A stretch of 39,568 nucleotides of DNA from a virus. Where the stretch lies: IMG/VR virus record IMGVR_UViG_3300021495_000037, positions 1 through 39,568 of that record; one strand, written 5' to 3'. Numbering within the stretch: the stretch's first letter is position 1; each line of letters begins with the position of its first letter. The position numbers were made by a program, and so were the translations under genes. Below, in pieces: positions 10,204-39,568 of the stretch. The notes under the pieces were generated by a model that saw only the letters and a program-made list of their open reading frames with translations, ran no database searches and had not been told where the DNA came from.

Positions 10204-12633
10204 ATGGGACGATGGAAAAAAGCACAAGAAGTTGAACAAGGAGCTTTGCGATTAGGACGATGGCAAAAAGCACAAGGGCTTAAAAAGTCTCCTGATGAAT
10301 TTATGCAAGGTTCTATTGTTCAAAAAATATTTGACCCATTGCTTGCTGGACAATATGCAGTGGCTGGTTTAGGGCGCAAATTATTTGGATTAAAGGATGC
10401 TGGAATTAAAGCAGGAATTAAAAAGCGAGCCTCTTGGATTGATATTGCTCACGAAAAATATCCATACAAACCGACTGAAGATTGGAAATTTAACTTTTTA
10501 CAAGAATTGAAAAGAAATTTGCCTGGAACTGTTGCTGATATTGTTTTAGATCCTTTGTGGATAGCACCTCCAGCTAAAATAGCAAAAATGCTTGGTATTA
10601 CAAAAGGTATAAAATGGGCTGGCAGGACAAAAGCAATTAAGCCAATAAAAGAAACAGCAGGCAAGATGTTTGTTTATCGTTATGGACAACCAAAGGAATA
10701 TGCTCAAATAGCAGAAGAGACAATTAAGCGAATTACAGAAGGCGGGGAAACAGCTTTAGACATTGCCCGACCGATTGGAAAATTATCAGCGGCAAAACAG
10801 CGAAAGGTTGCCGAAGTTATTAAAGGCGGAATTACAACGGATAAGGAAATTAAGGCATTAGCTGAACCAGTAATTGAGACATTTAAAAAACTTGGAAAAG
10901 AAGCGGTTGAAGCGGGACTGCTTGATGAACGAACTTTTGCTAAAAACTTTGGCAAGTATATGCCACGATTATATCGGACAAAAGAGATGCCAGAGGGAGC
11001 AATTAAATTTTTCGGGGATAAAAAGCCAATAAGAATTGATTTATCAAGATTTAAAAAACGCAAAGATATTCCAGAAGATATAAGGGATGCATTAGGAGAA
11101 ATCAAGGAAGCTGGTTATCCTTCTGCGAAAGGCATTGCTCAATTATCGCAAGCGATTGAGCGTGCAAAATTTTTCAATACTGTTGCAAAAAAATACGCTT
11201 CCAAAATTGCCAAAGAGGGATTTGAAAAATTGCCAGAAACAAAAACACTCGGAGAATTATCAAATAAATATGTGCCGAGAGCCATATTTGATGATATTCA
11301 AACAATGATTAGGCGAGCTGGAAAAGGTGAAGAAATTTACCGCAAAGGTTTAGGATTATGGAAATTTGGAAAAGTTATTGCTAATCCCGCAACTCACGGA
11401 CGAAATATGATGAGCAATGTTATTTTAGCTGATATGGGCGGACTTTCACCGATTAGAGTAGATATTTACGGGCAAGCATTGAAAGAATTAAAAACCAAAG
11501 GCAAATATTATAAGGAATTAAAGAAAGTAAGTAATATTTTAAGTGAGACATTTTATTCAAGAGAAATAGGAGATTTGCTTGATGCTTTTCAAAAAACAAA
11601 GGGAACTAATATAATCCAAAAAAGTTTAGGAATGGTTAAACGACTAATGAAAAAAAGCGGGGATTTATATCAAGCAGAGGAACAATGGAGCAAAATGGCA
11701 TTATATATTGCTAAAAGAAAAAAAGGATTATCACCCGAAAAAGCCGCTAAAGAGGCAGAAAAATGGTTGTTTGATTATTCTAAAGTTCCACCGTTAATTG
11801 AACATTTAAGAGGAACACGGGGCGTTTCTATTTTTGCTGGAGCTTACCCATTTTTAACTTTTTCTTATAAAGCAATTCCAAGAATGACAGAAATAGCTTT
11901 AACAAAAACTCCTCGTCTTACAAAGTGGATGAAAATAAAACGAGGAGTGGAGGCAATGTCATCAAAAGAAGAAAGAGAGAGAGAAAAAGCGGTATTGCCC
12001 AAGTATATGAGAGAAGGAATGTATATGAAAATTCCTTTTAAGGATAAATATGGCAGAAGTCAGTATTTGGATTTAAATTATATTTTGCCGTGGGGGGATA
12101 TTGGAGAAGTTGGACATACTCTTTATCCTTCTAATCCAGTTTGGGGATTGATTGCCGACATTAAAAGAAATAAGAGCGCTTTTACTCAACGAGAAATTTG
12201 GAAGCCTGGTTCAACAAAAGAAGAAATGTCTCAAGCAATTGTTGATTATGTAGGAAAAGCAATGTTGCCTCCTTTATTGTTTGGGTATTCTTGGGATAAA
12301 TTTTGGAGTATGGTTAAAAGAACGCCTGATTGGCAGGGTAGAGTTCGTAGTTTTTGGGCAACAATGGCTGATATTATGATTGGATTAAAAACAAGACCGA
12401 TTGATATTGAAGAAGAAAGAAAATGGAGAGAATTTGAAAGAGAACAAGATATTAGAGATATTCAAGCAAGAATACGCTCTACATTAAGGCGGACTGATAT
12501 TGCTGAAGAAGAGAAAAAGAGAATTGAAGCCGACTATCAAAAAAAGCTGGAAGAATTAGGAGGTAAAGTTCCTTATGTTCCAACTTTTATTAAAGAGAAA
12601 AAAAAGAGATGGCGTAAAAGTTCACGGCTTTGA
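10204..12633 (+). CDS. Large phage protein (LPD38-like), probable ejected virion protein
   Basis: This 809-residue basic helical protein begins with a short duplication (MGRWKKAQEVEQG and LGRWQKAQGLKK). Around residue 393 it has NPATHGRNMMSN, and near residue 540 a hydrophobic stretch following FDYSKVPPLIEHLRG. Both are of the type found in phage 'large polyvalent protein' segments that end up inside virions. The C-terminal 100 residues are Arg/Glu-rich helices. It follows the preceding gene by 13 nt and ends convergently with a minus-strand gene (12-nt overlap). I infer a role in DNA ejection or internal core formation. No catalytic motif is visible, and the domain name rests on my recollection of the motif. 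Confidence 0.65.
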   Translation: MGRWKKAQEVEQGALRLGRWQKAQGLKKSPDEFMQGSIVQKIFDPLLAGQYAVAGLGRKLFGLKDAGIKAGIKKRASWIDIAHEKYPYKPTEDWKFNFLQELKRNLPGTVADIVLDPLWIAPPAKIAKMLGITKGIKWAGRTKAIKPIKETAGKMFVYRYGQPKEYAQIAEETIKRITEGGETALDIARPIGKLSAAKQRKVAEVIKGGITTDKEIKALAEPVIETFKKLGKEAVEAGLLDERTFAKNFGKYMPRLYRTKEMPEGAIKFFGDKKPIRIDLSRFKKRKDIPEDIRDALGEIKEAGYPSAKGIAQLSQAIERAKFFNTVAKKYASKIAKEGFEKLPETKTLGELSNKYVPRAIFDDIQTMIRRAGKGEEIYRKGLGLWKFGKVIANPATHGRNMMSNVILADMGGLSPIRVDIYGQALKELKTKGKYYKELKKVSNILSETFYSREIGDLLDAFQKTKGTNIIQKSLGMVKRLMKKSGDLYQAEEQWSKMALYIAKRKKGLSPEKAAKEAEKWLFDYSKVPPLIEHLRGTRGVSIFAGAYPFLTFSYKAIPRMTEIALTKTPRLTKWMKIKRGVEAMSSKEEREREKAVLPKYMREGMYMKIPFKDKYGRSQYLDLNYILPWGDIGEVGHTLYPSNPVWGLIADIKRNKSAFTQREIWKPGSTKEEMSQAIVDYVGKAMLPPLLFGYSWDKFWSMVKRTPDWQGRVRSFWATMADIMIGLKTRPIDIEEERKWREFEREQDIRDIQARIRSTLRRTDIAEEEKKRIEADYQKKLEELGGKVPYVPTFIKEKKKRWRKSSRL

Positions 12634-12810
12634 CCAATATTCCTCCCAAGCATTCCATAAACAACCAAGACCAATTAACATAAGAGGCAAACCAATCAAA
12701 CCACTTGCGAATTGCCCCAACTTTTCTTCCATATCAGGAGTTAGAAATAAAATACTAAGAATAACAATTCCAACTATAGTTTGAAAATAATATATCCAGT
12801 TTTCTTTCAT
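12622..12810 (-). CDS. Two-helix membrane miniprotein, 62 aa
   Basis: The protein (start MKENWIYYFQTIVGIVILSI) has two predicted transmembrane segments, about residues 8-23 and 37-54 (GLIGLPLMLIGLGCLW). An acidic PDMEEK turn lies between them and a short charged tail follows. It is the second gene of the only minus-strand unit in the window. The start has no good Shine-Dalgarno, only an A/T-rich leader. The 3' end overlaps the convergent virion gene by 12 nt. It could be a holin-like or superinfection-exclusion protein, or a partner of the upstream structured RNA; the sequence does not decide. Confidence 0.65.
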   Translation of the reverse strand: MKENWIYYFQTIVGIVILSILFLTPDMEEKLGQFASGLIGLPLMLIGLGCLWNAWEEYWSKP

Positions 12811-12989: not shown

Positions 12990-13484
12990 TTGTTGGACTT
13001 CTTTTAAAGAGGAGGAAGGTTGCGAAAAATAAATTTTTCGCACAATGACCACCTTTCAATTTCTCTTTAAAAGTAAGTCAAACGATTTATTTATTGTCCT
13101 CTTGTCCAGCAAATCGGACAAATTGTTCACGGATAACCGTGTAAGTGCCCATCGGTTAAAACCGACGGAGAGAGCCGATTAAAATCTCCAACATTGTTCG
13201 GGACTTAAACCTGCGCTCTCATTCCTCTGGTTGACCTTGAGATAAATACATATCTCACCATCTAACTGGACCCTCAAAAGTAAAAAGTAAAAGAAGTCCT
13301 CAAGAAAACTTTTTACTACCGCACAGCACTGCATTGCGTAGGTAGCTCTCCCTGCTTTTACGGAGTCCTACTCCTGTAGGTCAATTCATTCGCAGGGTAA
13401 AAAACTAAAACAGGACCCCCGTTCGGAAAAGTCCTGTTAGAAAGATGTATAAAATCTTTTAAAAGATTCCGAACGGGTAATTGT
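12990..13484 (-). ncRNA. Large structured non-coding RNA candidate (minus strand, ~490 nt)
   Basis: The interval between the minus promoter (13491-13518) and the miniprotein genes has no ORF above about 18 codons but is dense in perfect pairings. In plus coordinates: 13469-13477 with 13418-13426 (9 bp); 13431-13438 with 13409-13416 (8 bp, interleaved with the first); hairpin 13453-13468; 13397-13403 with 13310-13316 (7 bp); 13392-13397 with 13350-13355; 13294-13299 with 13201-13206; 13251-13257 with 13238-13244; 13137-13141 with 13128-13132; 13116-13121 with 13102-13107. An 11-bp stem, 13063-13073 with 13001-13011, encloses a 10-bp hairpin at 13021-13042. The strand is assigned from the promoter. 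Size and complexity resemble phage large ornate RNAs (ROOL/GOLLD classes), but I cannot assign a family. Confidence 0.7.
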
Positions 13485-13490
13485 ATCTAC

Positions 13491-13518
13491 ATTTTATCAA
13501 AATTCAAAATCTTGTCAA
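13491..13518 (-). promoter_or_regulatory. Sigma70-type promoter, minus strand
   Basis: On the minus strand TTGACA (13513-13518) and TAAAAT (13491-13496) are separated by 16 bp. A DnaA-box-like TTATCCACA lies just upstream (13528-13537). Transcription would start near 13484 and read the structured RNA and then the two membrane miniproteins. Confidence 0.75.
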
Positions 13519-13545: not shown

Positions 13546-13761
13546 ATGAAAAACGAAGTCAATGAAAAACAGAATATCGCTATTGCCGAACTTAAAACAG
13601 AAGTCAAAAATTTGAAAGAAAACTTAAACAAGTTTATGAGCAATGACTTTCACGAGTTGAAAGATGATGTTAAAAAGATAGACGACAAAATTCTATACGG
13701 ATTTTTGGCTATGATAGCGGCTACTCTCATTCTGCAAATTATATTAAAGTTTTTAAAGTAA
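13546..13761 (+). CDS. XhlA-like holin/membrane protein, 71 aa
   Basis: The first 48 residues form a charged helical stalk (AELKTEVKNLKENLNKFMSN, then HELKDDVKKIDDKI). One C-terminal transmembrane helix follows (LYGFLAMIAATLILQIILKF) with a Lys tail. This architecture matches the XhlA/haemolysin-associated family encoded beside phage lysis genes. It heads the small-gene module that includes the M23 peptidase and a second holin-like protein. No Shine-Dalgarno precedes the ATG. A weak promoter-like pair (TTGTCA 13512, TAACTT 13534) lies upstream. Confidence 0.65.
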   Translation: MKNEVNEKQNIAIAELKTEVKNLKENLNKFMSNDFHELKDDVKKIDDKILYGFLAMIAATLILQIILKFLK

Positions 13762-13780
13762 AAGGAGGTGAACAAAAAAA

Positions 13781-13891
13781 ATGAAAACAATACTGGAAGG
13801 TGTAGAATTTCTAAGAAAGGAAGGATATGTAGGATACTGGAACGGAAAGTTTTGGAAAGCCGAAGAATTGGAAAAAGAAAATGAGGAATGA
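13781..13891 (+). CDS. Miniprotein, 36 aa
   Basis: ATG 13781 follows a near-perfect ribosome binding site (AAAGGAGGTGA) at good spacing, which supports a real gene. The product (MKTILEGVEFLRKEGYVGYW, then a Glu/Lys-rich tail) is soluble and acidic. Its stop overlaps the next start by 11 nt. Function unknown. Confidence 0.6.
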   Translation: MKTILEGVEFLRKEGYVGYWNGKFWKAEELEKENEE

Positions 13892-14033
13892 AGAAAGAGT
13901 ATTGAGGAAAGAGTTAGGCGAAATAGAAGCCCAGATAGAACTTTTAAAGCAGAGAAAAATACAAATAGAAACAAGATTGGCAATGATAAGGCAGAATGAA
14001 ATGATTAAGAGAAGACAGGAAAGAGGATGGTAA
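13881..14033 (+). CDS. Small coiled-coil protein, 50 aa
   Basis: The start lies inside the end of the preceding gene, indicating translational coupling. The product is one long charged helix (ELGEIEAQIELLKQRKIQIE) with regular Leu/Ile spacing and a basic C-terminus (RRQERGW), suggesting an oligomeric or nucleic-acid-binding role. No family recognised. Confidence 0.55.
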   Translation: MRNEERVLRKELGEIEAQIELLKQRKIQIETRLAMIRQNEMIKRRQERGW

Positions 14034-14035
14034 AA

Positions 14036-14155
14036 ATGAAGGACGAAGAATTGATGAAATTATTGCAGAGAGCGAATGTGCACTTTCAGAACATTACGAC
14101 CGAACTTTGGCAACTTGGCAAGATACTTGATGAGATTAGAGAGAGAAATGGATGA
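14036..14155 (+). CDS. Miniprotein, 39 aa
   Basis: ATG 14036 starts two bases after the previous stop. The helical product (MKDEELMKLLQRANVHFQNI, then TTELWQLGKILDEIRERNG) has no membrane segment. It overlaps the next start by eight bases. The tight packing of four such reading frames suggests a genuine run of small accessory genes. Function unknown. Confidence 0.5.
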   Translation: MKDEELMKLLQRANVHFQNITTELWQLGKILDEIRERNG

Positions 14156-14219
14156 ATACGAACACTATATGGAATTGAAAGAGAAACTGATAAAGCAACT
14201 AACTTTTGAAGAAAATTAA
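14148..14219 (+). CDS. Very short coupled ORF, 23 aa
   Basis: The product MDEYEHYMELKEKLIKQLTF plus three residues is acidic and helical. Its start overlaps the preceding stop (ATGGATGA arrangement) and it ends just before hairpin 14229-14254. It may be translated through coupling; support is positional only. Confidence 0.35.
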   Translation: MDEYEHYMELKEKLIKQLTFEEN

Positions 14220-14228
14220 AAAAATTGT

Positions 14229-14259
14229 GAGAGAGTTTTTCATTTTTCTCTCTCCCCCT
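14229..14259 (+). promoter_or_regulatory. Hairpin with conserved pyrimidine loop, copy 1
   Basis: GAGAGAG (14229-14235) pairs with CTCTCTC (14248-14254) around the 12-nt loop TTTTTCATTTTT, followed by a C-run and then a T-run. A second copy at 15173-15198 has a different stem sequence but nearly the same loop. It may be a weak terminator or a protein-binding RNA hairpin. Confidence 0.6.
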
Positions 14260-14289
14260 TTTTCTTACGAAAATATTATCATCTCTTTT

Positions 14290-14418
14290 ATGAAAACAGA
14301 ACAAATCAACCAAAAATGGGACGAGATTAAGCAGGAGCAGAAATGTGCTTGGATTGTTGGATTTTTTCTCGGAGCTACAATTTTTGGGATATTTGGATTT
14401 ATATTAGGAAGCCTATAG
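14290..14418 (+). CDS. Small membrane protein, 42 aa
   Basis: ATG 14290 is preferred to an upstream in-frame TTG at 14206 that would overlap the hairpin and the previous ORF. A 20-residue polar N-terminus (MKTEQINQKWDEIKQEQKCA) is followed by one Gly-rich transmembrane helix (WIVGFFLGATIFGIFGFILG). There is no obvious Shine-Dalgarno. Its place in the lysis-type module suggests a holin accessory or spanin-like role, unproven. Confidence 0.55.
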   Translation: MKTEQINQKWDEIKQEQKCAWIVGFFLGATIFGIFGFILGSL

Positions 14419-14434
14419 GAGGTGAATAAAAAAA

Positions 14435-14698
14435 ATGGATGAAGAAGTGGATGATTGGATAGATGAGAAGCGTTTGGAATTCTTGAGAGAAATAAGGAAC
14501 TACCATCCGACAGAGTGCAATCTGATAGCTTGGGGCTATGACGAAACACAAGGAATTTTGGCTATCCATTTGGTAGACACCAGAAGCAGAAGGAGATATT
14601 TCATTACGTTTGAGCACAGCGAGAGAGACCGATTGCGGGGATTGCGAAAGAAGATAGACGAGTTTTTGCAGGGAGGTATGAACGAAGGCTATGTCTAA
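14435..14698 (+). CDS. Hypothetical protein, 87 aa
   Basis: A strong ribosome binding site (AGGAGGTGA) precedes the ATG. The product has an acidic N-terminal helix and a central alpha/beta segment (NLIAWGYDETQGILAIHLVD, then RYFITFEHSERDRLRGLRKK). The segment faintly recalls the KTSC fold, but key residues are not convincing, so I leave it unassigned. Its 3' end overlaps the HNH nuclease gene by eight bases, so the two are probably co-translated. Confidence 0.7.
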   Translation: MDEEVDDWIDEKRLEFLREIRNYHPTECNLIAWGYDETQGILAIHLVDTRSRRRYFITFEHSERDRLRGLRKKIDEFLQGGMNEGYV

Positions 14699-15152
14699 GA
14701 AATCGCCTTCACGATATCCGAGAGAAACGCCAGAGCAGAGGAAGTGGATACTTAGGAGAGACAATTCTGAATGCCAGTTTATCAACTTAGACACGGGAGA
14801 GAAGTGCAGAAGCAAGAGCCACATTGAAGTGCATCACATTTCGCCAGTTATTTTCAGTTATGAATTCTTGAAATGGACGCCAGAACAGGTGAATGACCCA
14901 GAGAACTTAATCTGCCTTTGTAGAAACCATCATCAGCGGAATATCCACCCAGATTTCGGCATTATAGCCAAGAAGCAATACAGGTATACGAAGAACACCT
15001 ATAATTTAGCCGCAAAGAGACACAAGGTTTTAGCGAAAAAAGGAGTGCCCTATTGGCAGCCCCAGTGGGACGAGATATTAAGAATGACAGCGAGAATAAG
15101 AACCTTTAGATACAAGAGAGCTCATCCAGACGACCCTTATCCAGAACGGTAA
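14691..15152 (+). CDS. HNH endonuclease
   Basis: The 153-residue protein has an HNH fold. Cys28 and Cys39 flank a turn, His48-His49 lie in HIEVHHISPV, Asn72 in NLICL, Cys75 and Cys77 follow, then NHHQRNIHPD. This order (Cys pair, HH, N, CxC, HxxxxxH) is that of zinc-supported HNH nucleases. Phage HNH proteins assist packaging or act as free-standing homing endonucleases. Here the gene lies in the small-gene/lysis module rather than beside terminase. It could therefore be a homing or host-DNA-degrading nuclease (inference). The C-terminus is Lys/Arg-rich. Confidence 0.88.
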   Translation: MSKKSPSRYPRETPEQRKWILRRDNSECQFINLDTGEKCRSKSHIEVHHISPVIFSYEFLKWTPEQVNDPENLICLCRNHHQRNIHPDFGIIAKKQYRYTKNTYNLAAKRHKVLAKKGVPYWQPQWDEILRMTARIRTFRYKRAHPDDPYPER

Positions 15153-15172
15153 AAAAATAAAAAATAAACAAC

Positions 15173-15206
15173 GAGGAGTTTTCCATTTTTTACTCCTCCC
15201 CTCTTT
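15173..15206 (+). promoter_or_regulatory. Hairpin with conserved pyrimidine loop, copy 2
   Basis: GAGGAGT (15173-15179) pairs with ACTCCTC (15192-15198) around a 12-nt loop TTTCCATTTTTT, then CCCTCTTTT. Compared with 14229 the stem changes on both sides while pairing is kept. It lies between the HNH gene and the ATG at 15213. Confidence 0.6.
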
Positions 15207-15212
15207 TCTAAA

Positions 15213-15392
15213 ATGAAGAAAATAAATTTTACAAAAGAAGAAATTATAGAAATGCTGCGGATTTTATGGCGAGGCATATCCAAAATGCCTACTAAAACTC
15301 AGAAAAATAAAATTTGGAAAAAGATTGAAAACAAGCTAACAAAGGAATTATATGACGTTTCCACTAAAACAAAAAAAGATTTGCGGTTATAA
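15213..15392 (+). CDS. Small basic protein, 59 aa
   Basis: ATG 15213 follows the hairpin by seven bases and lacks a Shine-Dalgarno. The product (MKKINFTKEEIIEMLRILWR, then Lys/Thr-rich sequence) is a basic helical protein without membrane segments. It overlaps the start of the M23 peptidase gene by 41 nt in another frame, so it could be a coupled upstream gene or a control ORF. No family recognised. Confidence 0.45.
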   Translation: MKKINFTKEEIIEMLRILWRGISKMPTKTQKNKIWKKIENKLTKELYDVSTKTKKDLRL

Positions 15393-15945
15393 ATACCAGC
15401 AATGGACTTGGTATGGAGTTAAACATCGGGGAGTAGATTACTGTGCTAACAGAAGTCTGTTGTATGCTCCATCGGATGGAAAGATTATAAGGCAATTTTA
15501 CGGATATCAAGGGGGCAGATGGTTGTATTTCTGGACTGATACGGGCTATTTGTTTAAATTTGCCCATTTAAGCGAGTTTTTCCATAAAGTAGGGGATTAT
15601 ATCAAAGAGGGTCAAAAACTCGCCAGAACGGGCAATACAGGGGCTCTGACGACCTCTCCGCACTTACATATGGAGATATGGAAGGAGAAAGAACAAAAAA
15701 ATCAAATTAATCCTGAGGAATTTTTTAAAACAAGTTTAAACTTTGTCAAAGATATGAGAATAAACCGAGAACAATTAGAAAAAATCTATCAGCTGGCTTT
15801 CAAGCGGAATTTAGACTATGAAGCCCAGGGATATGTGGGCAGAGACCTTGACTTTGTGCTGGACGAACTGCTAAAATCTAAAGAGAACATCTACTACACG
15901 AGATTGTTCAAGGCCGCCAAAGCCATAGAGAAGGAGCTTCCTTAG
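15352..15945 (+). CDS. M23-family peptidoglycan endopeptidase (endolysin-like)
   Basis: The 197-residue protein carries the LytM/M23 zinc site: His25 and Asp29 in HRGVDY, His72 in FAHLS, and His104/His106 in SPHLHMEIW. These residues cut peptide cross-bridges in peptidoglycan. The C-terminal 60 residues (YQLAFKRNLDYEAQGYVGRD, then LDELLKSKENIYYTRLF) resemble a DUF4214-type module. No signal peptide is visible, so export would need a holin; two holin-like proteins lie nearby (13546 and 16063). The TAG stop shares two bases with the start of the tRNA-Ile gene. It is probably the endolysin; a virion-borne peptidase is the alternative. Confidence 0.85.
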   Translation: MTFPLKQKKICGYKYQQWTWYGVKHRGVDYCANRSLLYAPSDGKIIRQFYGYQGGRWLYFWTDTGYLFKFAHLSEFFHKVGDYIKEGQKLARTGNTGALTTSPHLHMEIWKEKEQKNQINPEEFFKTSLNFVKDMRINREQLEKIYQLAFKRNLDYEAQGYVGRDLDFVLDELLKSKENIYYTRLFKAAKAIEKELP

Positions 15946-16015
15946 GCCATTAGTTCAGAGGTAGAGCGCGACTCTTATAAAGTCGATGTCCCTGGTTCGA
16001 GTCCAGGATGGCCTA
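15944..16015 (+). tRNA. tRNA-Ile, anticodon UAU
   Basis: The cloverleaf is complete. The acceptor stem is AGGCCAT with ATGGCCT (7 bp) and the D stem GTTC with GAGC. The anticodon stem is CGACT with AGTCG around loop CTTATAA, with anticodon TAT at 15976-15978. The T stem is CCTGG with CCAGG around TTCGAGT. The discriminator is A and CCA is not encoded. UAU reads AUA directly. Most bacteria instead read AUA with a lysidine-modified CAU tRNA. The first base of the gene lies in the stop codon of the M23 gene. Confidence 0.95.
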
Positions 16016-16062
16016 CTGCTTATCTTGATTTCTACTTCTGTAGATGAGAGGGGGTGAACACG

Positions 16063-16215
16063 ATGAATATTATTGAAATCTTAAAAGGCAGAAAGACTTA
16101 TATTGTTGGTATTCTGATGGTTATTTTAGGGTTGCTTAATGGCGACAACCAGATGGTTCTGGAGGGTTTAGGTTTGATTACTTTGCGCGCTGGAGTGGCG
16201 AAACTTGAGAAATAA
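16063..16215 (+). CDS. Holin-like small membrane protein, 50 aa
   Basis: A good ribosome binding site (GAGGGGGTGAA) precedes ATG 16063. The product begins MNIIEILKGRKTYIVGILMV. It has one hydrophobic helix (about residues 13-27) and then a weaker amphipathic one (MVLEGLGLITLRAGVAKL). The pattern 'KGRKTYIV ... GLGLITLRAGVAK' is familiar from small phage proteins encoded next to endolysins. Its position 118 nt after the M23 peptidase supports a holin role. The gene is followed within 20 nt by the anti-SD-bearing terminator structure. Confidence 0.7.
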   Translation: MNIIEILKGRKTYIVGILMVILGLLNGDNQMVLEGLGLITLRAGVAKLEK

Positions 16216-16231
16216 TATTATTTAAAAAAAT

Positions 16232-16321
16232 CAGCTGGCTACAAATCACCTCCTTTCGGACGGATGCCTGCTGGACTAACATCCAGTTTGGGCTGACGTC
16301 CTTTCGCCAGCTGGTTTTTTT
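16232..16321 (+). terminator. Terminator-linked structured RNA carrying an anti-Shine-Dalgarno
   Basis: CAGCTGGC (16232-16239) pairs with GCCAGCTG (16306-16313), followed by GG and seven T residues (16315-16321). This is an intrinsic terminator with an unusually long 66-nt loop. Within the loop GGACG (16258-16262) pairs with CGTCC (16297-16301) and CTGGA (16271-16275) with TCCAG (16282-16286). Positions 16245-16257 read ATCACCTCCTTTC, identical to the 3' tail of 16S rRNA. The anti-SD segment is left unpaired in this fold. It could act as a 3'UTR-derived small RNA that pairs with ribosome binding sites. Confidence 0.75.
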
Positions 16322-16324
16322 ATT

Positions 16325-16366
16325 TGACGAAGTTCAAACTTGTTTTGACGAAGTTCAAACTTGTTT
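16325..16366 (+). repeat. Two perfect tandem copies of the 21-nt repeat
   Basis: Positions 16325-16345 and 16346-16366 are identical, core TGACGAAGTTCAAACTTG. The core contains the near-palindrome AAGTT-CA-AACTT. The pair lies between the terminator and the 16379 promoter, a typical operator position. Confidence 0.85.
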
Positions 16367-16369
16367 GGA

Positions 16370-16426
16370 GTTATCCACTTGACAAAGTTTTTAAAAGTGA
16401 TAAAATGAGAATGAAATGTGAATAAC
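16370..16426 (+). promoter_or_regulatory. Early promoter with flanking DnaA-box-like motifs
   Basis: TTGACA (16379-16384) and TAAAAT (16401-16406) are 16 bp apart. GTTATCCAC (16370-16378) abuts the -35 element, and TGTGAATAAC (16417-16426) covers the likely start site. The promoter feeds the HTH gene at 16437 with a leader of about 24 nt. Confidence 0.8.
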
Positions 16427-16436
16427 TCATAATACT

Positions 16437-16619
16437 ATGAAAAGGGAAATACAATTAATTCGCAACACAATTTTAGCCGAAGCTTGGGAAACTCATAAAG
16501 CGGAATGGGAAATGGACAAGATAGCCTCCGCTATGGGAATGAACCTTAAAACCGCCTACCGAGTTATTAAGAATTACAAGGAAAAAGAATTTTACAAACA
16601 TTTACGAGAGAGGAGGTGA
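16437..16619 (+). CDS. Small HTH DNA-binding protein, 60 aa
   Basis: The sequence MKREIQLIRNTILAEAWETH is followed by a helix-turn-helix (WEMDKIASAMGMNLKTAYRV, then IKNYKEKEF). It includes the usual A..(L/M)G(M/I)....(A/V)YR.I pattern of a recognition helix, and the C-terminus is basic. It is the first gene after an early promoter flanked by tandem operators, and it lacks a Shine-Dalgarno. It is thus a good candidate autoregulator that binds the 21-nt repeats or the TGTGGATAAC boxes (inference). A short sigma- or terminase-small-type HTH is the alternative. Confidence 0.65.
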   Translation: MKREIQLIRNTILAEAWETHKAEWEMDKIASAMGMNLKTAYRVIKNYKEKEFYKHLRERR

Positions 16620-16625
16620 AAAATT

Positions 16626-17009
16626 ATGACAAAATCAGATTTTCTAAAATTCATTTGGAAATATAGAATGAAACTTTTAGCTGAAGATAATAGACTTACG
16701 AAAGAAGGAAGAAAACTTCGGGCTAAAAGCGATGAACTTCGGGAGAGAGTTAACAAACTTTGGTGGGAAACAGGTAGCAGCAGATTTCACGCCAAGGGCA
16801 ATAAACTCTTGGCTGAAAGCAATAAACTTCAAGCTGAAGGCGATGAACTTCTGGATCAAGGCAGTAAACTTCGGGCTGAAGGCGATAAGCTCTGGGCTGA
16901 AGCTATCTTAGAAGTTTATGGAGATATTAAAATGGAGTGGAAAAATTGGAATGACGAGAAAGAAAGTTATGAATGCCATTTAGAGAATGGCGAAGTTTTT
17001 AAACCATAA
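16626..17009 (+). CDS. Heptad-repeat coiled-coil protein, 127 aa
   Basis: A GAGGAGGTGA site lies directly before the ATG and the gene starts six bases after the HTH stop. Residues about 15-95 are repeats of seven residues of the form KLRAEGD or KLLAESN (for example NKLLAESNKLQAEGDELLDQ), giving a long charged coiled coil. The C-terminal 30 residues (MEWKNWNDEKESYECHLENG) form a separate small unit. Proteins with this heptad occur in phages without known function. The DNA shows a corresponding 21-bp degenerate repeat, so the length may vary by recombination. Confidence 0.75.
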   Translation: MTKSDFLKFIWKYRMKLLAEDNRLTKEGRKLRAKSDELRERVNKLWWETGSSRFHAKGNKLLAESNKLQAEGDELLDQGSKLRAEGDKLWAEAILEVYGDIKMEWKNWNDEKESYECHLENGEVFKP

Positions 17010-17028
17010 CGAAAGGAGGTGATAAATT

Positions 17029-17460
17029 ATGACAAAATCCAAACAGGATTTCTACGGGAAAGTATTGGTAAGAGATTACGAGGAAGCTCCCCAGAGCATT
17101 CAATCCATATCAGAGCTGATTGACACTTCCGACCGCTTCGGGATAGCTGTATCCCTGTTCCAGAAGGCTGTCAATGATGTTATAGCAGAGCGTAAGGCGT
17201 GGGAAGAATTCAACGAAGAGTTTGCCACACCAGAACGAGACGAACAAGAGAAAGAGGAAATGGATAAAACTCCTCTTGGGAATTCTCCAGAAGACCACCA
17301 ATACGAAATCCAACGGGATTTAGACGACGAGGAAAGGCAGGCAAGGATTGACTACGCTGTAGAGGATGGAAGGTTAGACCCAGAGCAAGCTGAACAGATG
17401 TCAGAGGCGGAGATGGACGCTTGGCTGGAACTGCACGACAGAGACTTTGACCCGTATTGA
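17029..17460 (+). CDS. Acidic hypothetical protein, 143 aa
   Basis: The ribosome binding site (GAAAGGAGGTGAT) is the exact complement of the 13-nt anti-SD segment at 16245-16257. The protein is acidic and helical (VNDVIAERKAWEEFNEEFAT, DLDDEERQARIDYAVEDGRL, DPEQAEQMSEAEMDAWLELH). It has no membrane segment or metal motif. Strong acidity and a place in the early operon could fit a DNA-mimic inhibitor or a host-takeover protein, but nothing in the sequence proves this. Confidence 0.7.
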   Translation: MTKSKQDFYGKVLVRDYEEAPQSIQSISELIDTSDRFGIAVSLFQKAVNDVIAERKAWEEFNEEFATPERDEQEKEEMDKTPLGNSPEDHQYEIQRDLDDEERQARIDYAVEDGRLDPEQAEQMSEAEMDAWLELHDRDFDPY

Positions 17461-17462
17461 TA

Positions 17463-17498
17463 GACTGCTGGGCTGGTGAGAACGGCAGTCCTCGCCAG
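17463..17498 (+). promoter_or_regulatory. Interleaved helices directly before a ribosome binding site
   Basis: GACTGC (17463-17468) pairs with GCAGTC (17485-17490), and CTGGTGAG (17473-17480) pairs with CTCGCCAG (17491-17498, one G-U). The order A-B-A'-B' with no gap between A' and B' allows a pseudoknot or two exclusive hairpins. The AGGAG of the next gene starts two bases later. Confidence 0.65.
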
Positions 17499-17514
17499 TC
17501 AGGAGTTTAGCAAT

Positions 17515-17778
17515 ATGAAAAATTTTGAAGATGTTCTAAAAATTAAATGGTCTCGGTTAAGCCAGAGAGACCAGCAAATGGCAATTATGAGTGCCTTAAA
17601 ATCGGCATCGGCTGTTATGCAGGGAACTAAAATAAGTCCCGAAGAGTTATTGGAATACACCGAGAAAATACTTGAGAGGTTCTATGAATTTGAATTTTTA
17701 AAGAAACCAGCTATACCGAAAAAATTATCAGATACAGTTAACGAGGAAATCCAAAAAAATAATAATCAACCATTTTAA
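17515..17778 (+). CDS. Hypothetical protein, 87 aa
   Basis: ATG 17515 with AGGAG nine bases upstream is preferred to an in-frame GTG at 17476 that lies inside the RNA structure. The product (MKNFEDVLKIKWSRLSQRDQ, then MAIMSALKSASAVMQGTKIS) is helical and mildly basic, with a Pro/Lys-rich tail. It precedes the zinc-ribbon protein in the early operon. No family recognised. Confidence 0.65.
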   Translation: MKNFEDVLKIKWSRLSQRDQQMAIMSALKSASAVMQGTKISPEELLEYTEKILERFYEFEFLKKPAIPKKLSDTVNEEIQKNNNQPF

Positions 17779-17797
17779 CGAAAGGAGGTGAAAAACA

Positions 17798-18160
17798 ATG
17801 AAAGCTATAATTAAAAAGACACTTGGCAAAGTGGATTACACTTTTGAGATTGAGGGGCAAAGGGGCTTTGATGTCCTGTCCATTGCAGGCTTTTTGTCAT
17901 CTATGCCAGACACTTGCAAAATCTGTGGCAGTAAAAATGTCCATCTGACAAGCAACAGGGCGAAGGGCTACACTTTTGTTAAGGTTCTCTGCGAGGATTG
18001 CAACGCCAGAGCCCAGCTTGGTCAGTATAAGGACGGTAGCGGTTATTACTGGAAGAGCTGGGAAGAATATAATCCTCCGCAGAGAACTGAACAACCTGCA
18101 CAGCCAGTTTCAGACAGCACTGAAATGCCACCACCACCGTCAGAAGAACAGATATTTTAG
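17798..18160 (+). CDS. Zinc-ribbon protein with SSB-like acidic tail, 120 aa
   Basis: It has a full-strength ribosome binding site (GAAAGGAGGTGA). After a beta-rich start (KVDYTFEIEGQRGFDVLSIA) comes a zinc ribbon: Cys40/Cys43 (CKICGS) and Cys65/Cys68 (CEDC), ending with GYYWKSWEEY. The tail is Pro/Glu-rich and ends SEEQIF, resembling the acidic aromatic-tip tails of single-stranded-DNA-binding proteins (for example DDDIPF). It lies just upstream of the replication operon. It may be an SSB-like or recombination accessory protein, but the fold itself is not diagnostic. Confidence 0.7.
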   Translation: MKAIIKKTLGKVDYTFEIEGQRGFDVLSIAGFLSSMPDTCKICGSKNVHLTSNRAKGYTFVKVLCEDCNARAQLGQYKDGSGYYWKSWEEYNPPQRTEQPAQPVSDSTEMPPPPSEEQIF

Positions 18161-18352: not shown

Positions 18353-18354
18353 GT

Positions 18355-18376
18355 TGACGAAGTTCAAACTTGGTTT
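18355..18376 (+). repeat. Single copy of the 21-nt repeat
   Basis: TGACGAAGTTCAAACTTG followed by GTTT, identical in its 18-nt core to the tandem pair at 16325. It lies immediately upstream of a TGTGGATAAC box and the 18393 promoter, repeating the arrangement at 16325-16384. Confidence 0.85.
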
Positions 18377-18440
18377 GTGGATAACTCTCCTCTTGACAAG
18401 GAAAAAAAATAGGAGTATAATGTAGGTAGTTGTGGATAAC
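18376..18440 (+). promoter_or_regulatory. Replication-operon promoter with two DnaA-box-like motifs
   Basis: TTGACA (18393-18398) and TATAAT (18416-18421) are 17 bp apart, a perfect consensus. TGTGGATAAC occurs at 18376-18385 and again at 18431-18440, bracketing the promoter. The second copy lies at the expected start site. Confidence 0.88.
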
Positions 18441-20472: not shown

Positions 20473-21084
20473 ATGAACCTTAAAATTTCTTCACAAACCA
20501 AGGAGGAACTAATAATCTTCTTAATCGTGATAATGGGATTTATCTGGCTTGCGTTGTTGTTGGAGAATGCCTACAATGAGCAAAAATTGGAAGAACTGAA
20601 GGAAGAAAAGATGAAACTGGAGCAGAGGAACGAGGAACTCTTTCAAGAATTAAAGGAAACTATCCATAAGTCGGAGGCTGGCGTTAGTGGTAGTGAGGCG
20701 CTGGCATCCGACTATAAGGATATACCGAAGGACGACAGGGGCGGCACATCTTCATCTGCAGTGGAAATCTCTGCCCCCTCCGCTCCTGTCTCCGACGGGA
20801 TAATCAGGGAAGTAACAATGTATACCTCCCGTCCCGAAGAGACTGACGAAACGCCCTGTATCTCGGCTGACGGGACGAACATCTGCGAGGTTGACTACAA
20901 TGTCTGTGCCACCAATGCCTTCCCGATTGGCACGAGGCTGTATGTAGACAAGCTGGGCGAGTGTGTCGTCAAGGATACGATGTCCCGAAAATATCAGCAA
21001 AGGATAGATTGGTATGCTGGGACGGATGTGGAACGGGCTCTGGCTTTCGGAATTCAACGCTTACTTGTTAGGAAAATAAATTAG
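20473..21084 (+). CDS. Membrane-anchored 3D-domain (RlpA-like) cell-wall protein
   Basis: AAGGAG precedes the ATG. Residues 13-30 are a signal-anchor (LIIFLIVIMGFIWLALLLEN), about 33-65 a coiled coil, and about 70-105 a Ser/Ala-rich linker. Residues about 110-203 form a 3D/double-psi beta-barrel domain (MYTSRPEETDETPCISADGT, NAFPIGTRLYVD, VVKDTMSRKYQQRIDWYAGT). The pattern TxYxSxPxETDxTPxxxAxGT is the signature of the 3D family, which includes muralytic proteins and appears often in Patescibacteria. It may remodel the host wall. The three GGGTGAA-type motifs near its start are not explained. Its place inside the replication unit is unusual. Confidence 0.8.
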   Translation: MNLKISSQTKEELIIFLIVIMGFIWLALLLENAYNEQKLEELKEEKMKLEQRNEELFQELKETIHKSEAGVSGSEALASDYKDIPKDDRGGTSSSAVEISAPSAPVSDGIIREVTMYTSRPEETDETPCISADGTNICEVDYNVCATNAFPIGTRLYVDKLGECVVKDTMSRKYQQRIDWYAGTDVERALAFGIQRLLVRKIN

Positions 21085-21091
21085 AAACCGA

Positions 21092-21165
21092 CCCGCCATA
21101 TACTGAAACGATTGATCTAATGTCAATCTATTCTCGGCTACGGCTGAGATCAGGTGTATGGCGGG
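21092..21165 (+). ncRNA. Three-way-junction RNA element with alternative pairing
   Basis: A 12-bp closing stem pairs CCCGCCATATAC (21092-21103) with GTGTATGGCGGG (21154-21165, one G-U). Inside are hairpin GATTGA/TCAATC (21110-21115, 21123-21128) and a 7-bp hairpin capped by a C(UACG)G tetraloop (21132-21149). TGATCT (21113-21118) can instead pair with AGATCA (21147-21152), which excludes both inner hairpins. It lies just after the 3D-domain gene. Confidence 0.7.
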
Positions 21166-21202
21166 CAAGGGTTAAAAAATTGATTAAATAACCAATAAAA
21201 GA

Positions 21203-21352
21203 TTACTGGTGCTTGCTACTTCTGAGAATTAAGTCTCCAATGCCATAAAGTTGTTACATCTCTGGACTGCGGTCTAACCTACTGGGGCAAGAGATGACGA
21301 CGAGGAGAAGTAATAAAGCAATGTTAAATGGTATGTAGGATTCAGCCAGTAA
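21203..21352 (+). ncRNA. Multi-branched structured RNA element
   Basis: TTACTGG (21203-21209) pairs with CCAGTAA (21346-21352), GCTT (21211-21214) with AAGC (21316-21319) and TACTTCT (21217-21223) with AGAAGTA (21306-21312). Internal hairpins are GAGA/TCTC (21224-21237) and CATCTCT/AGAGATG (21257-21263, 21290-21296). AT-rich linkers on each side share ATAACCAA-TAAAA. There is no ORF of note, so this is probably one RNA with the neighbouring elements. Confidence 0.65.
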
Positions 21353-21423
21353 AAAAATTGGATTAAAATAACCAAATAAAACTAACTAATCTCTATTTAT
21401 GGGATAAAGGAAAATAAAAACTG

Positions 21424-21468
21424 GGCATAGGTAGTTCCTATTAACTTAACGGAGTTTTACTACCCGCC
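21424..21468 (+). ncRNA. Covarying hairpin, copy 1
   Basis: GGC (21424-21426) pairs with GCC (21466-21468) and GGTAGT (21430-21435) with ACTACC (21459-21464). The stem-loop boundary carries AGTTCCTATT (21433-21442). Copy 2 at 21483 has a different stem but keeps pairing and this sequence. A promoter-like TTAACG-17-TTTAAT overlaps the 3' arm. Confidence 0.65.
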
Positions 21469-21482
21469 TTTAATGAATAATA

Positions 21483-21544
21483 TATAGGCAGAGACAGTTC
21501 CTATTTAAACAACTTATTTGTTGCTGATATACTGTCCGCCTATA
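21483..21544 (+). ncRNA. Covarying hairpin, copy 2
   Basis: TATAGGC (21483-21489) pairs with GCCTATA (21538-21544) and GACAGT (21493-21498) with ACTGTC (21531-21536). AGTTCCTATT is at 21496-21505 and a small CAAC/GTTG hairpin lies in the loop. Relative to copy 1 the GGTAGT/ACTACC stem has become GACAGT/ACTGTC, a double compensatory change. Confidence 0.7.
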
Positions 21545-21546
21545 AT
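21518..21546 (+). promoter_or_regulatory. Possible promoter giving a leaderless transcript
   Basis: TTGTTG (21518-21523) and TATAAT (21541-21546) are 17 bp apart. Transcription would begin at or next to the A of ATG 21553, giving a leaderless mRNA. The elements overlap hairpin copy 2, so the two readings compete. Confidence 0.4.
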
Positions 21547-21552
21547 AAAAAT

Positions 21553-32680: not shown

Positions 32681-34018
32681 GTGATTTCAGTTATAATATC
32701 TACATATAACCGTAGAAAACAATTAAAACGGGCAATCCAATCGGTTTTAAACCAAAGTTATAAAGATTTTGAGCTTATAGTTGTTGATGACTGCTCAACT
32801 GACGGAACAGAAGAAATGCTGAAGAAATTTCCGCAGGTTGAGTATTTCAAGACAAAAAGGAATTCAGGACACGACGGATTGCCAAAGAATATAGGAATTC
32901 AGAAGGCAAAAGGTGATTATATATGCTTTCTTGACGACGACGACATCTGGAGAAGGGACGCCTTAAAGGTTCTTTCAAAATATATTGAATATAGCAAAGC
33001 TGATATAGTTTATGCTGATTATCTGATAGACAGAAAACCAGGCTGGAGCATCCATTTCAGCGCCTCGCTTTTGTCAAAGCAGAATTATATCACAATGGAC
33101 ACGGTGATTGTCAGGAGAAAATGCTTGCTGGAAGTTGGAGGGTTTAACGAGGAAATCCCAAGGTTTAAGGATTGGAATTTATGGCTGAGACTGCAGAAAC
33201 GGGGCTATAAGTTTTTACATATTCCGATTATTATTACAGAAGTTCAGATCGGCAAAGAAACTATCAGCGAAAAGTATAAAGTTGACAGGGATGAACAGGG
33301 GAGTTTTCTGCCGACATTTTTCAACCCTGCCGATTGCAAGATATATGCTGATAAGACTATTTTAGGCGAACAGAAGCCCTTGAAGGTTGCCTTGTTTACT
33401 CTGACAATGAACAGGTTGAAACTTACCAAGGAAATGTATAAGTCTCTGGAAACTGCTGGCTATGACTTTGACTGGTTTGTGGTAGACCAAGCAAGCCAAG
33501 ACGGAACAAAGAAATGGCTGAAGGGCAAGGCAATAGTAAAATACAACAGGCAAAATGAAGGAATAGCTAAAGGCTGGAACCAAGCAATAGAGCTGATTAA
33601 GAAGACAGGCAAGTATGATATTGTTTGCAAAGTGGACAATGACGCTCTTCTGATGACTGACGGGTGGCTGAAGATGATGGTTGATTTGTTTGAAAGGAAC
33701 AGGAAAATTATATTAAGCCCTTATGTGGAAGGACTTGAAGACAGCCCTGGAGGCGTTTTGAGGCAGAGAAGCGGCGGAGAGAGCCCTTATGTGATGATAA
33801 ACGAGAGAGTGCTCGGCGTAGCCCCCCATCTCGGCGGTATAGTGTTTGGCTCTCCGATAGAGTTGTATGATAATTTTAAGTTTCCAGAGGATTTAAAAGG
33901 CAATAAGGATTATTTTTTAAGCAGATATGCTCTTCAGCGGGGCTGGACTTTGTTTTATATGGAAGAGGCGAGAGTATTCCACAACGGGCAGGAAGAGCAA
34001 GTAAAGGATTATAAATAA
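32681..34018 (+). CDS. Tandem-domain GT2 glycosyltransferase
   Basis: GTG 32681 follows AAGGAA. Residues 1 to about 210 are a family 2 GT-A domain (ISVIISTYNRRKQLKRAIQS, VVDDCSTDGTEE, ICFLDDDDIW). A second GT-A-like domain starts at about residue 232 (LKVALFTLTMNRLKLTKEMY, VVDQASQDGTKKW, CKVDNDALLMTDGW). Both contain DxD-like acidic pairs (DDD and DND), so two sugar transfers are possible. It heads the glycan cassette and is preceded by the interleaved RNA element. Targets could be capsid, fibres or a host surface glycan. Confidence 0.88.
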   Translation: MISVIISTYNRRKQLKRAIQSVLNQSYKDFELIVVDDCSTDGTEEMLKKFPQVEYFKTKRNSGHDGLPKNIGIQKAKGDYICFLDDDDIWRRDALKVLSKYIEYSKADIVYADYLIDRKPGWSIHFSASLLSKQNYITMDTVIVRRKCLLEVGGFNEEIPRFKDWNLWLRLQKRGYKFLHIPIIITEVQIGKETISEKYKVDRDEQGSFLPTFFNPADCKIYADKTILGEQKPLKVALFTLTMNRLKLTKEMYKSLETAGYDFDWFVVDQASQDGTKKWLKGKAIVKYNRQNEGIAKGWNQAIELIKKTGKYDIVCKVDNDALLMTDGWLKMMVDLFERNRKIILSPYVEGLEDSPGGVLRQRSGGESPYVMINERVLGVAPHLGGIVFGSPIELYDNFKFPEDLKGNKDYFLSRYALQRGWTLFYMEEARVFHNGQEEQVKDYK

Positions 34019-34058
34019 CGAAGTTTTAACTTGTTATGACGGAGTTTAAATTTGGTTT
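34016..34058 (+). repeat. Two degenerate tandem copies of the 21-nt repeat
   Basis: Copy 1 (34016-34036) is TAACGAAGTTTTAACTTG plus TTA, with the palindromic core AAGTT-TT-AACTT. Copy 2 (34037-34058) is TGACGGAGTTTAAATTTG plus GTTT. The junction of the two copies creates the ATG start (34036) of the next gene. The 21-nt period matches that at 16325 and 1784. Confidence 0.65.
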
Positions 34059-35506: not shown

Positions 35507-36188
35507 GTTTTTTTTAGAAATACACGATTTCGGAATGCTTTTGCCGGGGATGGACAATCTTTTAAAAATTAAGGAAATATACCCGAATTTTAAAATAACG
35601 GCATTTACAATTCCGATGCCGAAAGAGTTTTTTCTCCCAGACAACCAGAAGCATTTTACCAAAGACAAATACAGGAAATGGGCGGAAATTGTCAACAGCT
35701 ATGACTGGCTGGAAGTGGGGATGCACGGATTTGCCCATACCTATTATGAATTTGATTGCGTATATGACAAGGCGGCAATGGCTCTGAAGGCTGGCGAGAA
35801 CTTATGGAAGGTAGCAGGCTTGAAATACAAGAAACTTTTTGTCGCTCCTTATTGGCAGTATTCCTACGATGCTCTCAACGCTCTGAAGGACGGAGGATGG
35901 GCTGTAGGTGTAGACAGAAACCATCCTATTCCAATACCAAAAGGATTGAAAACTTTTACTTATAACTGGAGCTATGATGAAGAATTGCCTAAAGGCGATC
36001 GGGATCGCCGACACGGTAAAATAATTGGGCACGGGCATTATTACCATACTGAAGGGAGCAGAAATGCCATAGATGACTGCTATTATAATATAATTAGGCA
36101 AATTCCAAAGGATGCGGAATTTGGATTTATCAGCGAGTTAATGGAGGGGGGTGATAAAAGTGAAAAAAACAACCAAAAAAGCAACTAA
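35496..36188 (+). CDS. Polysaccharide deacetylase-like protein (NodB/DUF2334 type)
   Basis: The 230-residue protein has a NodB-like barrel pattern: FFLEIHDFG near residue 10 (catalytic/metal Asp), GMHGFAHTYYE near residue 74 (HxxxH metal pair), FVAPYWQYSYDALNAL near 115 and GHGHYYH near 178. Family members remove acetyl groups from sugar chains. In this cassette it would trim the glycan made by the neighbouring transferases. The gene includes a perfect copy of the GC-rich 20-bp word (35997-36016). Its last 29 nt overlap the next small gene. Confidence 0.78.
   Translation: MPVKFFLEIHDFGMLLPGMDNLLKIKEIYPNFKITAFTIPMPKEFFLPDNQKHFTKDKYRKWAEIVNSYDWLEVGMHGFAHTYYEFDCVYDKAAMALKAGENLWKVAGLKYKKLFVAPYWQYSYDALNALKDGGWAVGVDRNHPIPIPKGLKTFTYNWSYDEELPKGDRDRRHGKIIGHGHYYHTEGSRNAIDDCYYNIIRQIPKDAEFGFISELMEGGDKSEKNNQKSN
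35997..36016 (+). repeat. GC-rich 20-bp word, copy 3
   Basis: Matches 2175-2194 at 19 of 20 positions. With three preceding bases it forms the inverted repeat GGCGAT-CGGG-ATCGCC (35994-36009). It encodes DRDRRH here. Confidence 0.7.
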
Positions 36189-36303
36189 AACTATCAAAAA
36201 AGTTAAAAAAGTTAAGATTGAGAAACTGCCTGAAGATTATGTAGTGGATAATGTTAAAATCCAGCAAAAAGTTAATGAAATTATTGAAAAAATAAACAAA
36301 TAA
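36160..36303 (+). CDS. Small Lys-rich protein, 47 aa
   Basis: A GTG start follows a strong GGAGGGGGGTGA site, which is the main support. The product begins with a Lys/Thr run (KKTTKKATKTIKKVKKVKIE) and ends in a mixed helix (DNVKIQQKVNEIIEKINK). Such basic tails bind DNA or acidic surfaces. It overlaps the deacetylase-like gene by 29 nt in another frame. Function unknown. Confidence 0.55.
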   Translation: MKKTTKKATKTIKKVKKVKIEKLPEDYVVDNVKIQQKVNEIIEKINK

Positions 36304-39130: not shown

Positions 39131-39568
39131 ATGGCAGACCAAAAGATAAGCGAATTAAACGAATTAACAACACCAGACGGAGATGCCGATTTTGTGCCAG
39201 TTGTTGATACTTCTGCAGGGACAACTAAAAAAATAACTCCTAATAATTTAGGGGCGCAAGGACCGCAGGGACCGCAGGGACCTCAGGGAGACGCTGGTGC
39301 ACAGGGTGCCCAAGGAGCGCAAGGTGCCCAAGGTGATACAGGAGCTCAAGGACCCCAAGGAGACGCAGGCGCTCAAGGCGCACAGGGCGCACAAGGAGCG
39401 CAAGGAGACACGGGAGCTCAGGGACCGCAGGGAGATACAGGTCCCCAGGGAGCCCAAGGAGCGCAGGGCGCGCAGGGGGCACAAGGCGCTCAGGGTCCAC
39501 AAGGAGATACAGGGGCGCAGGGAGCTCAAGGTGATACAGGCGCTCAAGGAGCCCAAGGGGCTCAGGGA
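39131..39568 (+). CDS. Collagen-like tail fibre, N-terminal part
   Basis: ATG 39131 begins a phage-fibre anchor ([20 protein letters not shown], then [20 protein letters not shown]). It continues as 35 Gly-X-Y triplets, mostly GAQ, GPQ, GDT and GDA, to the last base of the window. The codons vary between copies of the same triplet, so the repeat is kept at protein level. The frame matches that at position 1; joined, the fibre would have at least 313 residues. Assemblers often collapse such repeats, so the true length may be greater. The collagen-like rod would place the tip domain away from the virion. Confidence 0.88.

Follow-up and report, generated by a model that had tools for sequence, protein, structure and literature searches.

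A terminator-type hairpin in a phage genome with a predicted open copy of the 16S rRNA anti-Shine-Dalgarno tail, complementary to the leaders of nearby genes

Streptococcal csRNAs are small RNAs, expressed under CiaR control, whose presumed pairing sites are the translation start regions of messages, including the Shine-Dalgarno (SD) sequence; their structure differs from that of the phage hairpin described here. In the excerpt of the icaR report used here, the 3'-UTR of this Staphylococcus aureus mRNA carries an anti-SD motif (UCCCCUG) that pairs with the SD in cis or in trans, prevents initiation and creates a substrate for RNase III, and the effect was tested by substitution of the motif and, in vitro, by compensation (PMC3868564). 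According to the same excerpt, a UCCCC motif of S. aureus RNAIII and RsaE pairs with target mRNAs and prevents initiation (PMC3868564), and an excerpt on Listeria LhrC describes UCCC motifs and C-rich pairing with target mRNAs (PMC12282133). Extended SD-anti-SD helices matter for initiation in S. aureus (excerpt of PMC13009471). In phages P1 and P7, c4 is a phage RNA with sequences, probably located in loops, that are complementary to the surroundings of a ribosome-binding site of the same phage; its target, in immunity, is the ant mRNA, and the excerpt describes no anti-SD in a terminator loop (PMC12197685).

The locus analyzed here would resemble icaR in having an anti-SD in the presumed 3' region of an mRNA. 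It differs in that the icaR motif is 7 nt long and lies 260 nt after the stop codon (excerpt of PMC3868564), whereas the phage segment comprises 13 to 14 nt in the loop of a putative terminator. RNAIII, RsaE and LhrC have, in the excerpts cited, short motifs in small RNAs, whereas in the phage all 13 nt of the 16S tail stand at what is presumed to be the 3' end of an mRNA. The preliminary description of this DNA stated that no RNA of such a kind had been described; for the mechanism this was too strong, given icaR (PMC3868564) and c4 (PMC12197685) as precedents, both taken from excerpts. No phage RNA of this kind was found in the titles and abstract openings listed for the anti-SD and phage small-RNA literature, which is weak evidence that a terminator-loop anti-SD is new in a phage.

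The window, that is, the whole stretch of DNA analyzed, is a virus record of 39,568 bases from a phage with portal and terminase genes, which also encodes a DnaB-like helicase, an M23 peptidase and one tRNA-Ile(TAT). The features at the hairpin are as follows.

15352-15945, plus strand: M23 peptidase (endolysin-like), presumed member of the transcription unit ending at the hairpin
15944-16016, plus strand: tRNA-Ile (TAT), presumed member of the same unit
16063-16215, plus strand: small hydrophobic protein of 50 amino acids, directly 5' of the hairpin, leader AGAGGGGGTGAA; possible cis target
16224-16321, plus strand: terminator-type hairpin (by fold and detector), outer stem 16224-16239/16306-16321
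16245-16257, plus strand: anti-SD segment ATCACCTCCTTTC, predicted unpaired, part of the 18-nt 5' strand of an asymmetric internal loop, opposite TTTC
16258-16301, plus strand: inner hairpin GGACG...CGTCC, which keeps the loop open in the predicted fold
16324-16365, plus strand: 21-nt operator-like repeat that contains a palindrome (TTGACGAAGTTCAAACTTGTT), in two direct copies, 3' of the hairpin
16379-16406, plus strand: sigma-70-type promoter-like site, by an 11/12 consensus match only, with TG before the -10; faces the downstream genes

Since the repeats and the promoter-like site lie 3' of the hairpin, it looks to be placed at an apparent boundary between two rightward units. The terminator after lysis genes that had been proposed earlier corresponds to a strong terminator-type hairpin after the M23 peptidase and the small hydrophobic protein, the latter without a Pfam or PHROGs family. 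The word TTATCCAC, which we take to resemble a DnaA box, is also found 3' of the hairpin, near the repeats and the promoter-like site. By eye, the operator-like repeats form a family around the palindrome AAGTTYRAACTT, with members at 16324-16365, 18354-18377, 34018-34057, 1785-1825 and 15727-15750, some of them just 5' of promoter-like sites or gene starts. Also by eye, the 127-amino-acid product of gene 16626-17009 is made of short repeats, and the window ends (1-80 and 39489-39568) carry similar collagen-like repeats; the ends share no exact overlap of 10 to 499 bases, and the genome may be circular, with the record opened inside a repeat.

The outer stem of the hairpin has 16 bp (7 A-U, 1 G-U and 8 perfect pairs), or 17 bp with T16223-A16322. 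Its perfect 8-bp base is formed by 16232-16239 and 16306-16313, with six G-C pairs, and A7 at 16224-16230 faces T7 at 16315-16321. Because A7 reads as a T-tract on the minus strand, the hairpin could terminate transcription in both directions. The interior holds a second stem, GGACG (16258-16262) with CGTCC (16297-16301), which encloses a further hairpin, and the 18-nt open strand TACAAATCACCTCCTTTC (16240-16257) stands opposite TTTC. The predicted fold of 16222-16325 has an energy of -44 kcal/mol (z -7.3), equaled by 0 of 200 shuffles. The stem noted earlier, an 8-bp base with T7, was recovered and lengthened to 16 bp. The 13 nt, previously described as unpaired in the loop, were predicted to be mostly open, with a mean unpaired probability of 0.89 to 0.91 in four of five transcript lengths and 0.59 for 15800-16322. 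A fold of 16017-16325 retained the hairpin, with the SD of 16063 not paired to it. The hairpin has the G+C-rich stem and following U-tract of an intrinsic terminator (8 perfect pairs, 6 of them G-C, then T7) but a long loop, with 66 nt between the perfect arms, inner hairpin included; loops of intrinsic terminators are usually under about 10 nt. Because the loop is large, a simple terminator scanner (loop 3-8) omitted the hairpin. In an Rfam covariance search of the window, the tRNA alone passed the cut-off and the hairpin matched no family; a psRNA2 candidate on the minus strand was rejected at 26.2 bits against a 65-bit cut-off. From this anatomy, we infer that the hairpin is probably a terminator.

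The segment ATCACCTCCTTTC occurs at 16245-16257 without mismatch. Its only other exact copy in the window lies on the minus strand at 17011-17023, where it is the SD of gene 17029, and a copy with one mismatch (17780-17792) is the SD of gene 17798. With two or fewer mismatches there are 6 sites, compared with 1.53 expected, a number reached in 0 of 100 shuffles, and the exact 13-mer is expected 0.00009 to 0.00013 times on the plus strand of the window. Twelve genomes were searched for the 16S tail; seven gave a 16S match and five a tail, found by a pattern that presupposes GATCACCTCC. The tail reads GGATCACCTCCTTTCTA in four of these five, namely Terrilactibacillus (6 of 7 16S copies), an Anaerolineales, and a Paceibacterota and a Moraniibacteriota, both Patescibacteria, which bears out the identity to the bacterial 16S 3' tail first reported for this segment; the fifth tail, from an archaeon, reads CCTCCTACG. 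The identity of the hairpin to 16S ends at 13 nt on both sides. An rRNA-operon origin, suggested by a tRNA-Ile near a 16S tail, was rejected on the anticodon (TAT), the position of the tRNA before the tail and the end of the identity at 13 nt; in rRNA operons, the tRNA comes after 16S. Two related records carry a tRNA-Trp(CCA) (G004, at L025 15078-15150, and G016, at L046 3127-3198), where the window has tRNA-Ile(TAT).

At 17010 and 17779 the phage carries CGAAAGGAGGTGA, its own ribosome-binding cassette, whose complement the loop displays. Complementarity to the 17029 leader runs to 14 nt, versus 13 nt of identity to 16S, and ends there, so that a longer copy is not visible; a reverse-complement match of at least 14 nt elsewhere in the window was found for 1 of 500 random 27-mers from the window. 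The extra base would favor an origin from the phage's own ribosome-binding site over one from 16S, as a hint only, because it also pairs in the inner stem. The leaders with the strongest complementarity are listed here.

17010-17023, plus strand: leader of gene 17029, CGAAAGGAGGTGAT, exact 14-nt complement of 16245-16258
17779-17791, plus strand: leader of gene 17798, CGAAAGGAGGTGA, exact 13-nt complement of 16246-16258
16604-16625, plus strand: leader of gene 16626, GAGAGGAGGTGA; predicted loop duplex -21.8 kcal/mol

The exact complement before 17029 and the 12-nt complement before 17798 had been pointed out previously, and both prove one nucleotide longer than stated. Extended SDs are also present at starts 16063, 16626, 13781 (36 amino acids), 14435 and 36160. 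We calculated the duplex of the loop with 52 start regions of our own choosing, among which 14035 lacks a start codon, 36160 is a GTG within ORF 36151-36303 and 13781 opens only 36 codons. Seven of the 52 paired strongly (17029, -24.5 kcal/mol; 17798, -23.2; 16626, -21.8; 36160, -21.4; 16063, -21.0; 13781, -18.1; 14435, -16.1), while the other 45 reached -12.9 kcal/mol or weaker; the 1% point of 3,000 random 40-mers was -15.1 kcal/mol. Six of the seven lie at 13781 to 17798, within 2.5 kb of the hairpin. Extended SDs were confined to a few small starts (13781, 14435, 16063, 16626, 17029, 17798 and 36160). Most other starts tested have a weak or absent SD, and the contrast between SD genes and genes lacking one, on which the first interpretation relied, is real among the starts tested.

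Co-folding of the whole hairpin with 24 leaders, in nested structures without pseudoknots and with 20 shuffled loops as controls, gave these gains: -9.9 kcal/mol for 17029, -5.1 for 17798, -2.6 for 16063 and -2.1 for 36160, and -0.6 or nearer zero for the other 20 leaders, including 16626 and 14435 (both -0.5) and 13781 (0). Shuffled loops gained on average -0.2 to 0.0 for 17029, 17798 and 16063, and 14435 did better with shuffled loops (mean -3.0). In these nested co-folds the pairing was obtained only by opening the terminator stem, and the gains include the loss of the outer stem; full 13-bp pairing inside the closed internal loop would be strained. For 16063, on the presumed same message, the duplex energy of -21.0 kcal/mol stands beside a predicted cis fold without that pairing; an SD complement stands just 3' of ORF 16063-16215, with which it is presumably cotranscribed. 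Duplexes of the loop with the SDs are about as strong as those of the 16S tail itself, so the loop would have to compete with ribosomes.

The reading we prefer, with a probability of roughly 40%, is that the RNA 3' end left by the terminator pairs with the SDs of nearby genes and so represses them, in the manner of S. aureus icaR or P1 c4. An intrinsic, probably bidirectional, terminator would close the unit 13546-16215 and insulate it from the promoter region 16324-16406, and its oversized loop would expose the antisense of the cassette CGAAAGGAGGTGA. With transcription ending at about 16321, the 3'-terminal part of the message, either intact or trimmed, would pair with extended SDs and block ribosome entry. 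In trans it would act first on 17029 and 17798 and then on 16626; on its own transcript, the cis targets would be 16063 and possibly 14435 and 13781. Genes without an SD would be unaffected. Translation of the neighboring small accessory genes would then be expected to drop when the unit is transcribed. The transcription unit, termination, the stability of the RNA, its pairing in the cell, and repression and its timing are postulates of this reading. An unlikely variant is a late switch, in which the copy of the 16S tail at the 3' end of the lysis message would silence early SD accessory genes: upon transcription of the late unit, the terminator RNA would compete with ribosomes for extended SDs, and SD-less genes, namely, those for replication and the virion, would be spared.

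We surveyed other sequences for similar arrangements. At least 120 loci in viral contigs have a 12-mer with T6 behind it at the appropriate distance; in genome contigs, where an A-tract was added to the 12-mer and T6, there were 78 loci. Among the matches listed, 75 of 120 viral loci were ordinary SDs, which we defined as having, on the opposite strand, a closely following start codon with 30 or more open codons, as were 29 of the 78 genome loci. The detector, which requires the motif to lie within a stem of 7 or more consecutive pairs, 3 of them G-C, next to a T-run, picked up the hairpin of the window itself, one of 120 viral loci among the matches listed (a weak, intragenic hairpin of 9 pairs with 3 G-C) and none of the 78 genome loci; it leaves out L147 and L200, where the motif itself is a stem arm, and several loci where, by eye, a compact terminator-like hairpin directly follows the motif (for example, L091 and L163). 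L147 5530-5568 (plus) and L200 3508-3547 (minus), one in a viral contig and the other in Chitinophaga dinghuensis, are compact terminator-like hairpins with a stem of SD paired with anti-SD, followed by a T-run. The motif is thus paired as a stem arm in 2 of 198 loci, among the matches listed, and open in the window. An open anti-SD inside a terminator stem is not a routine by-product, being shown by none of the 78 genome loci and, among the matches listed, by the one intragenic case in 120 viral loci; an open loop like that of the window was not found elsewhere in the sequences searched.

Baits from the portal and the major-capsid-like protein retrieved 25 distinct records in all, with a close group (portal 45 to 59% and capsid-like protein 59 to 73% identical) and six distant records (23 to 33%). 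Ten related records, full or nearly so, were scanned for hairpins and ORF matches. Plus-strand ORFs of at least 45 amino acids between 13546 and 27174 had no match in the compared loci, so none of these loci shows the orthologous junction; the related record G015, at 39 kb about as long as the window, yet carries other genes there. Searches by pattern and BLAST in viral contigs, phages, plasmids and related records found no homologue of the hairpin from which conservation or covariation could be judged. The pattern CACCTCCTTTC with one mismatch gave 4 sites in 3 of the 14 related records searched out of 25, none exact, compared with 11 sites for the backward-read control in the same 14 records. 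G015 and G016 contain two and one large T-tract hairpins, respectively, without anti-SD (outer stems of 16 to 23 pairs, z -6.3 to -8.8), which by the ORF lists precede transcription units rather than follow them, in a place that is not orthologous. A hairpin flagged for CCTCC in the relatives (L029 12381-12437) was dropped, as it overlaps a terminase match. In viral contigs, the exact 27-nt element pattern had no match, and two matches to the 16-nt core were rejected as chance, neither being enclosed by a hairpin. The M23 peptidase bait gave one candidate stretch and no relative in viral contigs, and the peptidase was found in 0 of 14 related records; helicase 19293 was found in 0 of 7 further related records, and its bait gave one distant relative (30% identity) in viral contigs. 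The capsid-like protein 31636, whose capsid role is assumed, gave 207 candidate stretches in genome contigs, and since none was confirmed, no host was found. BLAST of the region gave only short matches, rejected as composition, in phages (A/T-rich query part 9-54 and E 0.03 to 5 among the matches listed; 74 of 77 records from Staphylococcus phages) and in plasmids (two, E 0.06 and 0.7).

Other large structured stretches were observed. The intergenic stretch 12990-13515 of the window (526 nt, -153.5 kcal/mol, z -7.3) lies near a leftward promoter-like site (13518-13491, 11/12 with TG), followed by a small minus-strand ORF (12622-12810), and a second one occupies 21080-21550 (471 nt, z -4.8); neither gave an Rfam match above the cut-off or a BLAST match in phages. 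In G016, L045 880-1480 (minus strand) comprises about 500 nt mostly without a listed ORF, with a TTGACA/TATAAT start by eye and a T-tract hairpin of 19 to 20 bp; it has no Rfam match above the cut-off and may be a large structured RNA. In G015, two large T-tract hairpins, L044 668-765 and 1062-1153 (z -6.9 and -8.8), are very stable; they head divergent genes and are possible attenuators.

The regulatory reading stands ahead, with close behind it a plain bidirectional terminator between two units, in which the anti-SD is an incidental inverted copy or relic of a ribosome-binding cassette with no regulatory role. For a stem with A and T tracts that stands at a boundary, with operator-like repeats and a promoter-like site behind it, termination is explanation enough; the word is the cassette of the phage itself, in opposite sense at 17010 and 17779; no similar open loop was seen elsewhere in the sequences searched, the word being merely a stem arm in L147 and L200; and scanning many windows turns up coincidences. 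However, an interior of 66 nt in which 13 of 18 open bases are anti-SD is odd for a terminator, the chance count is 1e-4 per window strand, and an inverted copy longer than the 14 nt shared with the 17029 leader is not visible. We lean slightly toward a function of the loop because chance would rarely produce the segment and the targets lie nearby, and judge the matter near even because no relative with the hairpin was found. It is improbable that the hairpin is a structured RNA or a site for protein binding that serves some other purpose, such as antitermination or processing, with the anti-SD as a secondary feature: the phage and its relatives do have further large structured intergenic stretches, but no Rfam family reaches the cut-off at the hairpin, and no common sequence was seen between it and the two other structured stretches of the window.

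A functional minus strand, in which GAAAGGAGGTGAT would be a real SD, left from a lost gene start or serving as a ribosome-binding decoy, appears more improbable still. There is a perfect SD on that strand, followed by TTG TAG, and the hairpin folds there too (-35.6 kcal/mol, z -4.4), but the plus-strand fold is better (-41.1 kcal/mol, z -6.3), no minus-strand ORF of at least 60 amino acids overlaps the hairpin, and the minus strand has no promoter-like site between the hairpin and 17026. Least credible is the wide form of the original proposal, in which the RNA would mask host SDs generally and shift translation to SD-less phage genes. In its favor, several bacteria have a 16S tail identical to the loop segment, and pairing with the loop is weak for most of the 52 phage starts tested. 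Against this, the phage's own SD genes would also be affected, the RNA would be needed in excess over messages while competing with ribosomes, and it is a leader of the phage itself that gives the longest match. Of the SD masking envisaged in the preliminary description, the part on host mRNAs is unsupported, the longest complementarity being to the 17029 leader. Overall, the observation is confirmed and its interpretation partly supported.

Should the loop have no function, it would serve as a warning that a loop can match 16S exactly over 13 nt and yet be an inverted ribosome-binding site. If the preferred reading, repression of nearby genes by the terminator RNA, is true, the terminator would double as a regulator of translation that sorts messages by SD length, and a simple test of gene timing would become available in phages with mixed SD usage. 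In the case of the late switch, genes would be sorted by SD type with one short RNA. Under the preferred reading, control by a 3'-UTR anti-SD would also extend from a staphylococcal mRNA to phages.
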